DNA of 64,000 nt from Adlercreutzia muris (lineage in GTDB: Bacteria > Actinomycetota > Coriobacteriia > Coriobacteriales > Eggerthellaceae). Location of the stretch: contig NZ_WAJS01000010.1 in assembly GCF_008831045.1 (NCBI RefSeq), positions 1 to 64,000 on the forward strand, read 5' to 3'. This document shows, in pieces, positions 7,570-50,491 of this stretch. Position 1 is the first letter of the stretch, and each line of letters opens with the position of its first letter. The notes below the pieces were generated by a model. That model did no database searches. It saw nothing but the letters and a program-made list of their open reading frames with translations, and was not told the DNA's origin. The position numbers and the translations under genes were made by a program.

Positions 7570-7679
7570 GACCCCGGCAAGGGGGCACTGCGCTCGGGCA
7601 GGTCATCGCCTTGGGGAACAGCCCAGTGGACTGTTCCCGTCGCTGCGGAATCTGCGCGCTGACCCCCCTCGCCGAGGTC
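7570..7679 (-). repeat. dispersed intergenic element, copy 1 (core read on minus strand)
   Basis: Outer arms at 7570-7585 and 7664-7679 pair with only two G-T type differences. Inside, on the minus strand, lies the core TTCCGCAGCGAC, an inner hairpin (GGGAACAG with CTGTTCCC), and then AAGGCGATGACCTGCCCGAG. The same core occurs at 48776-48893 and 50331-50440. This copy sits between the convergent ends of the permease and the small radical SAM gene. Confidence 0.7.
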
Positions 7680-48620: not shown

Positions 48621-48775
48621 AGGTCTCATCTCCTGCATCGGCGAGGGTTTCGGTACAGGAAAGATGATAGAAAAAGCCCTCATTACGCATCCCATAGCAA
48701 ATGCTGAAGAAAGCGTAAGGAGGGCGAAACTTTTCCTTACGAAGGGAACGGTCGTCGACGAATTCCTCGCGTGCA

Positions 48776-48893
48776 GGGTCGGGGCGGCCGGTGTTTCGAC
48801 CGAGCGAGTTCCGCAGCGACCGGGAGTGCCCGGTGGGCACTCCCGCAAAGCGAGGACTGTCTGAGCGAATCGGAATACCGGGCGCCCCGACCC
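48776..48893 (+). repeat. dispersed intergenic element, copy 4
   Basis: Outer arms 48776-48794 and 48875-48893 match in 17 of 19 positions. Inside are TTCCGCAGCGACC, a perfect 10-bp inner hairpin (GGGAGTGCCC with GGGCACTCCC), and GCAAAGCGAGGACTG then GAGCG. The inner and outer stems differ in sequence from those of copies 1 and 2 but keep pairing. Confidence 0.75.
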
Positions 48894-48904
48894 GAAGGGG
48901 TAGC

Positions 48905-50194
48905 CTACGCTGCGACCAGCCGCTCCAGCGCGGCTAGCTTCACGCAACAGCAGAACACGTCCATGGCGGCGTCCAGCTCCTCGAGGGGCGGCAGCGACGG
49001 CGCGATGCGGATGTTGGAATCGGCCGGGTCGTCGCCGTAGGGCCAGGTGGCGCCCGCGCCGGTCATGGTCACGCCGGCCTCCTTCGCCAGGGCCACGATG
49101 CGGCGGGCGGTGCCCTCGGGCCCCTCGAAGCTCACGAAGTAACCGCCCCGGGGGTTCGTCCACGTGGCAATGCCGGCCTCGCCCAGCTCCTCGTCCAGAC
49201 GGCGGCACACCAGGTCGAACTTCGGCGCCATGAGCTCGCCGTGGCGCGCCATGTGGGCGGCAAGGCCCGCGCCCTCGTCCAGGAACCGGGCATGGCGCAG
49301 CTGGTTCAGCTTGTCGTGGCCGATGGCCTGGGCGCTCATGTGGCGCTTGATCTCCGCTACGTTGGCGGGACTCGCCGCCACGGCCGCCACGCCGGCCCCG
49401 GGGAAGGTGATCTTGGAAGTGGAACCGAACTTCAGGTAGCGGTCGGGGTTGCCCGCCTCGCGGCAGGCCGTGGCGATGTCGAGCACGGTATCCTGCTCGG
49501 CCGCATCGGCGGAGAAGTGGTGCACGGCGTAGGCGTTGTCCCAGAAGATGCGGAAGTCAGGCGCGGCGGCGTCCATGGCCGCCAGGCGGCGCACCACGTC
49601 ATCGGAGTAGGTGACGCCCGTGGGGTTCGAGTACTTCGGCACGCACCAGATGCCCTTCACGGCTGCATCGGCGGCCACGAGGCGCTCCACCTCGTCCATG
49701 TCCGGGCCGTGCTCGTCCATGGGCACGGGAATCATCTCGATGCCCAGAGCCTCGCAGATGGCGAAGTGGCGGTCGTAGCCCGGCACGGGGCACAGCCACC
49801 TCACTCGGGGCAGCCGGCTCCAGGGCCCGTTTCCCTGGGTGCCGAACAGCATGTATCGCACCATGGCGTCGTACATGGCCGTGAGGCTGGCGTTGCCCAG
49901 CACGATGACATTTTCGGGCTCATCGTCCAGCAGCGTCGCCATGAGCCGCTTCGCCTCGGGGATGCCGTCGAGCACTCCGTAGTTGCGGCAGTCGGTGCCG
50001 TCCTCGGCGGTAAGGTCGGCGGTTGCGTCCAGAGCGTCCAACAGGGGTAGCGACAGCTCCAGCTGCGCCGCCGACGGCTTGCCGCGGGCCATGTTCAGGG
50101 AAAGCCCCCGGGCGACCATCTCGTCGTAGCGGGCCCGCACGGCCGCGAGCTCGGTCTCCAATTCCGTCTTCGTCATGGCTGCGTAGCGCGGCAT
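48905..50194 (-). CDS. aspartate-aminotransferase-like PLP enzyme (AspB-4 / MocR-type fold I)
   Basis: 429 residues from ATG 50194 (AAAGGACGG). The PLP lysine is in FGSTSKITFPG. Other marks are NMARGKPSAAQLELS, NYGVLDGIPEAKRLMA, VPKYSNPTGVTYS, and the substrate-carboxylate arginine in NIRIAPSLPPLEEL. These match the actinobacterial-type aspartate aminotransferases (Aminotran_MocR group), which lack the DNA-binding domain of MocR regulators. It would make L-aspartate from oxaloacetate and glutamate. The placement before the ligase-racemase-asnB unit on the same strand fits supply of aspartate to that route, though the repeat element and 284 bases lie between. Confidence 0.85.
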   Translation of the reverse strand: MPRYAAMTKTELETELAAVRARYDEMVARGLSLNMARGKPSAAQLELSLPLLDALDATADLTAEDGTDCRNYGVLDGIPEAKRLMATLLDDEPENVIVLGNASLTAMYDAMVRYMLFGTQGNGPWSRLPRVRWLCPVPGYDRHFAICEALGIEMIPVPMDEHGPDMDEVERLVAADAAVKGIWCVPKYSNPTGVTYSDDVVRRLAAMDAAAPDFRIFWDNAYAVHHFSADAAEQDTVLDIATACREAGNPDRYLKFGSTSKITFPGAGVAAVAASPANVAEIKRHMSAQAIGHDKLNQLRHARFLDEGAGLAAHMARHGELMAPKFDLVCRRLDEELGEAGIATWTNPRGGYFVSFEGPEGTARRIVALAKEAGVTMTGAGATWPYGDDPADSNIRIAPSLPPLEELDAAMDVFCCCVKLAALERLVAA

Positions 50195-50262
50195 CTTCCG
50201 TCCTTTCGCCGTAAAACTGCTCGTCTGCATAAGATGATGGCCTTCACTCCATCGCGGTAAAG

Positions 50263-50268: not shown

Positions 50269-50330
50269 CCCAACGGTAAGGTTATCGGCACGGAATATGG
50301 CACTTCGCAAGAATGGCTGGCTATACGGTG

Positions 50331-50440
50331 TCGGTTTCGGCAGGGGGTCCGCGCGCAGATTCCGCAGCGACGAGAACAGTCCAGGGGGCGGTTCCCCGAA
50401 GCGAGGACTGCCCGAGCGCGGCGCCCCCTGCCGAAACCGA
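50331..50440 (+). repeat. dispersed intergenic element, copy 2 (in the putP leader)
   Basis: Perfect 17-bp terminal inverted repeats: TCGGTTTCGGCAGGGGG (50331-50347) and CCCCCTGCCGAAACCGA (50424-50440). The core reads AGATTCCGCAGCGACGAGAA, then CGAAGCGAGGACTGCCCGAG. The total of 110 bp equals copy 1. It lies in the 5' region of putP, 51 bases before the start codon. Confidence 0.8.
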
Positions 50441-50491
50441 CCCCCGGGGAGTCCCAAGCGTGTTGAAAAGGTTCTCGCAGAAGGGGGAAAT

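Follow-up and report, generated by a model that had tools for sequence, protein, structure and literature searches.

Repeated hairpins of several kinds have been described in bacterial genomes. REP and REPIN sequences, with their RAYT (Y1) transposases, are dispersed, mostly intergenic hairpins with compensatory changes (PMC2817692, PMC3733652). Rickettsia palindromic elements (RPE) are palindrome-like mobile units of 105 to 146 bp, found in intergenic regions and in frame within conserved protein genes, and ERIC/IRU and other MITE-like repeats are long stem-loops of about 100 to 200 bp that are intergenic and sometimes intragenic (PMC2229807).

The element described here shares features with each of these. 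Like REP/REPIN, it is dispersed and mostly intergenic, shows compensatory change, occurs in inverted pairs, and is likely recognized as one folded strand. However, it is about 150 bp long, whereas a REP has 20 to 40 bp; it has a conserved internal core between variable stems instead of the GTRG head (a GTRG or CGTC end tag); and the Y1 gene is missing from most high-copy genomes tested. It resembles RPE as a palindrome-like mobile unit that lies between genes and also in frame in conserved genes (trmD, mfd, and an iorA-like gene), although it belongs to another phylum, the likeness is one of description (PMC2229807), and neither covarying stems nor a one-strand wobble asymmetry is described for RPE in that review. 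Terminal inverted repeats are usual in ERIC and other MITE-like repeats, and target-site duplications are frequent (PMC2229807), whereas here the core is internal and the arms of different copies are only 45% identical at the median. The family is a new, class-wide one of the REP/ERIC/RPE kind, distinct by its internal conserved core and covarying stems, and none of the enzymes tested (Y1, reverse transcriptase, and IS110) accounts for its mobility.

Copies in the window and architecture of the element

We analyzed a 64-kb stretch of DNA (the window), in which the original prediction had placed three copies of a block with a conserved core inside stems of changing sequence. All three are present at the predicted positions, copies 2 and 3 with slightly wider limits.

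7570..7679, minus strand: copy 1 of the element, degraded; covariance-model match of 78.5 bits; flanked by two convergent genes
7639..7650, minus strand: left core of copy 1, TTCCGCAGCGAC; exact match
7591..7609, minus strand: right core of copy 1, GCGATGACCTGCCCGAGCG, diverged from GCGAGGACTGYYYGAGCG; exact match
48775..48902, plus strand: copy 2 of the element, main subtype; covariance-model match of 129.1 bits; antisense to its neighbors
48809..48820, plus strand: left core of copy 2; exact match
48850..48867, plus strand: right core of copy 2, GCGAGGACTGTCTGAGCG; from the alignment of copies
50326..50453, plus strand: copy 3 of the element, GCGCGCAGATTCC subtype; covariance-model match of 96.7 bits; between divergent genes
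50360..50371, plus strand: left core of copy 3; exact match
50401..50418, plus strand: right core of copy 3, GCGAGGACTGCCCGAGCG; from the alignment of copies

The left core TTCCGCAGCGAC occurs exactly three times within the window, and copy 2 ends 2 nt from the stop of an aminotransferase gene at 48905-50230 (minus strand). Copy 1 has GCGATGACCTGCCCGAGC as its right core versus GCGAGGACTGYYYGAGC in the family, and its 78.5 bits compare with up to 145 bits in other copies; it is a worn member of the family, and copies 2 and 3 are nearer the family consensus. Every window copy has the same fold layout (outer stem, core, inner hairpin, core, outer stem), and the RNA-fold z-scores of five representative copies, two of them from the window, were -5.8 to -8.9 against dinucleotide shuffles.

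The predicted 110-bp block is real, but it is not the full length of the element. Conservation falls to zero about 40 nt beyond the GACCGAGCGAG...GAGCGA core on both sides, and thus the discrete unit in this genus is about 150 bp long; sizes range from 110 to 175 bp. Along the strand with the core GAGTTCCGCA...GAGGACTGYYYGAGC, a small palindrome on the left (CTCAACCnnGGTTGAG) is often followed by GTAGAGG. The left arm and left core come next, and after the inner hairpin the unit runs through its right core and right arm to a short tail. The internal-loop core of this plus strand consists of GAGUUCCGCA on the left and GAGGACUGYYYGAGC on the right. The main subtype contains AGCGA four times, two on each side, and the few bases that surround the core distinguish the subtypes. 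The inner hairpin can be missing: in several genera, only GCAGCGAAGC separates the core halves. The outer stem reaches about 45 bp in some genera, where it is in cases perfect or almost so. Only in this genus do most main-subtype copies carry GTAG at the outer-stem foot, and the head is not conserved across other genera. The aligned copies have neither a fixed terminal sequence nor conserved terminal inverted repeats; the outer arms are the variable part, and the conserved part is internal.

Two arrangements were also observed among the copies. Head-to-head pairs of elements lie 18 to 25 bp apart with a CTCAACCnnGGTTGAG-type palindrome common to both (C1:54123-54398 and C33:20696-20957 in the genome of the window; L095 and L092). 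In one subtype, the inner hairpin is long, and a TACAAT- or TAAAAT-like sequence in its loop recalls a -10 box (L114:4001-4139, L115:4001-4140, L117:4001-4142, L119:4001-4140, and L109:995-1131).

Dispersal and phylogenetic range

A gapped core pattern had 22 matches in the genome of the window, and its reversed control had none. A covariance model built from an alignment of 23 copies, with rough E-values, gave 47 matches at E<=1e-3 in the 2.77 Mb of this genome, about 34 of them strong; strongly diverged copies are among those scoring below about 55 bits. In eight further genomes of the genus, the model had 24 to 56 matches each, so that the search of its own and related genomes suggested with the original prediction did yield further copies. 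In the class, the exact gapped core was found in 168 of 398 genomes (reversed control, 0 of 398), with 0 to 60 pattern copies per genome and 20 to 60 in many; about 40% of the species sampled in this class of gut bacteria carry the family. Some genera (g62 and g80) include both high-copy genomes and genomes with no copy. We infer that this class is Coriobacteriia, as Adlercreutzia and other Eggerthellaceae are among the closest named relatives of the DNA in the window. Outside the class, 1 of 358 genomes in a sample of the phylum had a match, and as far as sampled the range is specific to one class. This lone match (L331:1501-1539 in G622) has the outer stem, and it could reflect transfer or contamination of a draft assembly.

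The core pattern was absent from IMG/VR viral contigs, and a search of plasmids (PLSDB) and phages (INPHARED) with one copy gave no match. At the gathering cutoff of Rfam 15, the only matches in the window were tRNAs, none of them for the element, and at E<=10 only chance miRNA-like matches appeared, the best weak one (copy 3) scoring 23.4 bits against a cutoff of 90. As regards named RNA families, this bears out the original prediction, whose author knew of none with this core. The open literature searched holds no prior description of the element, and an earlier report may exist elsewhere.

In the complete chromosome G001:C1, about 40 of the 52 matches lie between 1.15 and 2.45 Mb, i.e., in 45% of its length, possibly around the terminus. 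A by-eye count of the G001 matches, with the position of the origin assumed, made no replication-strand bias evident. At L289:1430-1730 (G276), a 125-bp tandem duplication holds the minimal core twice.

Covariation of the stems

The original prediction held that both stems vary while pairing persists, and we examined this in 72 copies from the genome of the window and 1.2 Mb of a second genome of the genus, G002. In an alignment fitted to the model, which favors pairing, 95.5% of cells were paired versus 72.1% in shuffles, two-sided changes occurred at 29 of 37 pairs, the cells with a two-sided change numbered 571 versus 159 after shuffling, and the covariation score was 0.629 versus 0.183 +/- 0.007. 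Sliding the partner columns by 1 to 3 positions destroyed the signal (score, 0.09 to 0.13). A plain MAFFT alignment of 23 copies gave the same picture, with two-sided compensatory change at 26 of 37 predicted pairs. All 19 outer-stem pairs and all 8 inner-hairpin pairs had two-sided changes, and the core helices were nearly invariant.

The prediction was thus correct on this point, covariation being far above both the shuffled and the slid-column controls, and the covariation supports its further claim that selection acts on the folded structure. The findings that it had named as contrary to a structured family (no other copies, no covariation, or a match to a named family) were each looked for, and none was obtained.

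Insertion, loss, and in-frame copies

We compared orthologous sites between the genome of the window and G002, with flanks mostly 80 to 99% identical, and found four groups of sites: those with the same element, those with a different element or subtype (hisF, purH, and others), those filled in one genome and empty in the other, and those with one versus two elements. The element of copy 1 is missing from the orthologous site in G002. The copy 2 site, with another sequence at its orthologous position, was classed as filled versus empty, and the G002 orthologue of copy 3 has the same outer stem and an altered inner hairpin. Nested copies and half elements with breakpoints within the core were also found. 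Four of the 47 copies in the genome of the window lie in frame inside open reading frames (ORFs) that stay open, among them trmD, mfd, and a gene that we take, from its domains and our own reading, to be iorA-like. The trmD site is empty in G006 and holds full or partial elements, all in frame, in the other eight genomes of the genus. Taken together, filled/empty and swapped sites, nested and half copies, and in-frame insertions show, at the level of sequence comparison, that the element undergoes insertion and loss and behaves as a mobile one.

In the hisA-hisF intergenic region (L101; G002:C1:1067189), each genome has a half and a full element, the two lineages being exchanged between the species. 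No clear target-site duplication was seen among the few filled/empty pairs. We rejected the idea that the arms are copied from the target flank, as a clean empty site (element 29) has no such arm and element 36 gives a weak hint only. In about 1.6 Mb of DNA from the genome of the window and G002, a search for an autonomous copy, whose core halves would enclose a gene, gave only nested and half elements.

A REP-associated transposase gene had been proposed as a check. Y1 (PF01797) is absent from the genome of the window (99.99% complete) and from nine other high-copy genomes (G002, G004, G005, G007, G024, G028, G029, G295, and G199), i.e., from 10 of 15, control genomes being positive; some genomes do have Y1 genes. 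A reverse transcriptase domain is missing in 7 and IS110 in 6 of the 15 high-copy genomes. For Y2 (PF04986), no control was positive. As each is missing from several of these genomes, Y1, reverse transcriptase, and IS110 were all rejected as the shared mobilizer.

Proposed mechanism and alternative explanations

We propose to read the block as one copy of a small, nonautonomous mobile element of about 150 bp whose folded plus strand is recognized via its core, and we give this reading a probability of roughly 0.62. The plus strand would fold into a hairpin with an internal-loop core; both the outer stem and the inner hairpin are variable, and the latter is optional. A trans-acting enzyme would recognize the core within this fold. 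The recognized form would more likely be single-stranded DNA, like REP/IS200-type hairpins, than an RNA intermediate. Only copies that still fold would propagate, and this may be why the stems drift with compensation and the core stays fixed.

Which strand folds, and as what, bears on the RNA-based alternatives. When a transition hits one side of a G-C or A-T pair, G-T and A-C mismatches are equally likely to result, unless the fold of one strand is selected. Counts of G-U from minimum free energy folds of both strands are biased by the folding rules, and Watson-Crick-only scoring was used instead. In the outer stems of 108 copies, which are related and so not fully independent, we counted 148 G-T (G-U) versus 26 A-C; the G-U:A-C ratio was 43:6 for elements sense to their neighbors and 41:2 for antisense ones, and with one conserved wobble removed it was 67:17 overall and 23:2 in antisense copies. 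The inner hairpin, with very few imperfections, had no asymmetry (G-U, 6; A-C, 9). Selection in host mRNA would require the asymmetry to flip in antisense copies; as it does not, the plus strand of the element itself folds, as DNA or as its own RNA, and these comparisons show that selection acts on one strand in its folded form, independently of host transcription. It is this result, with an orientation to genes that is about random (19 sense, 15 antisense, 6 convergent, and 6 divergent by our simple gene finder, the convergent and divergent shares equal to background), that makes a cis-acting RNA in host transcripts (a leader, terminator, RNase-processing site, or mRNA-stability hairpin) highly improbable, although copies are mostly intergenic and several lie 10 to 40 nt 5' of a ribosome-binding site and start codon (presumably those of hypE-, cysK-, hisF-, and purH-like genes, by our own reading of the starts). 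The leader or riboswitch reading suggested by such positions was rejected on orientation and strand asymmetry. A mobile element that moves through RNA, or a structured RNA transcribed on its own (e.g., a SINE-like template, or a ribozyme or noncoding RNA gene with its own promoter), with the fold selected in RNA, is unlikely. In its favor, the strand asymmetry needs no host transcription, one-strand G-U tolerance suits RNA at least as well as DNA, and covariation is massive with conserved internal loops. Against it stand the lack of an Rfam match, the patchy occurrence of reverse transcriptase, the copies within ORFs and in antisense orientation, the variation from 0 to 60 pattern copies between genomes of one class, and the near absence of GNRA and UNCG loops. 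Among 217 distinct inner hairpins, drawn from the core-pattern matches in the class and phylum samples and from individual loci, 122 had triloops, nearly all C-G closed, 23 had C(GNA)G, 1 had GNRA, and none had UNCG; C(GNA)G loops are very stable in DNA. The scarcity of RNA tetraloops may argue against RNA, the loop evidence being suggestive only, and the one-strand wobble excess, with the loops and orientation as indirect signs, favors a single-stranded-DNA hairpin over a cis-acting RNA.

Two further explanations were considered. In palindrome-correcting mutation, one arm would be rewritten from the other by template switching, with no selection on the fold; the almost perfectly Watson-Crick inner hairpins without strand asymmetry, and the outer stems of up to about 45 bp with no or almost no mismatches in some genera, would fit. 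However, G-U exceeds A-C several-fold, one outer-stem G-U wobble is kept in 57 of 72 copies, and at the trmD site a central A-G mismatch is fixed while its neighbors change on both sides; correction would erase the kept wobble and the mismatch, and both count against this explanation, which we consider quite improbable. In four species with the same insertion subtype at trmD, the outer stem has GAAG/CTTC versus GGGG/CCCC, TAC/GTA versus CGC/GCG versus CAC/GTG, and G-C versus C-G, with one G-U also keeping its position. Such compensation in place speaks against the arms simply correcting each other; these arm differences may also stem from conversion by other copies in the genome. The chance that the element is a true REP, moved until recently by a RAYT (Y1 HUH transposase) since lost from many genomes, is likewise small. 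GTAG is frequent at the outer-stem foot in this genus, turnover is REP-like, and Y1 genes occur in some genomes, but Y1 is absent from the genome of the window and the nine high-copy genomes named above, other genera do not conserve the head, and 110 to 175 bp far exceeds the 20 to 40 bp of a REP. Among the options first raised for this block, a cis-acting structured RNA is thus disfavored by the about random orientation and the unflipped wobble asymmetry, and a REP-like mobile hairpin is the best match in behavior, but the Y1 transposase expected with a REP is absent from the genome of the window and the nine others.

Significance

The folded mobile element that we propose differs between sister species and inserts into conserved housekeeping genes, e.g., trmD and mfd. 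With a fixed internal core and freely covarying stems, it shows selection on shape more cleanly than is usual for a mobile element. More tentatively, and with somewhat more doubt than belief, we suggest that this class-wide element is known by the internal core of a folded single strand, not by its ends, and that its mover is neither a Y1 enzyme, a reverse transcriptase, nor an IS110 transposase. If true, this would be a new kind of hairpin-based mobility.
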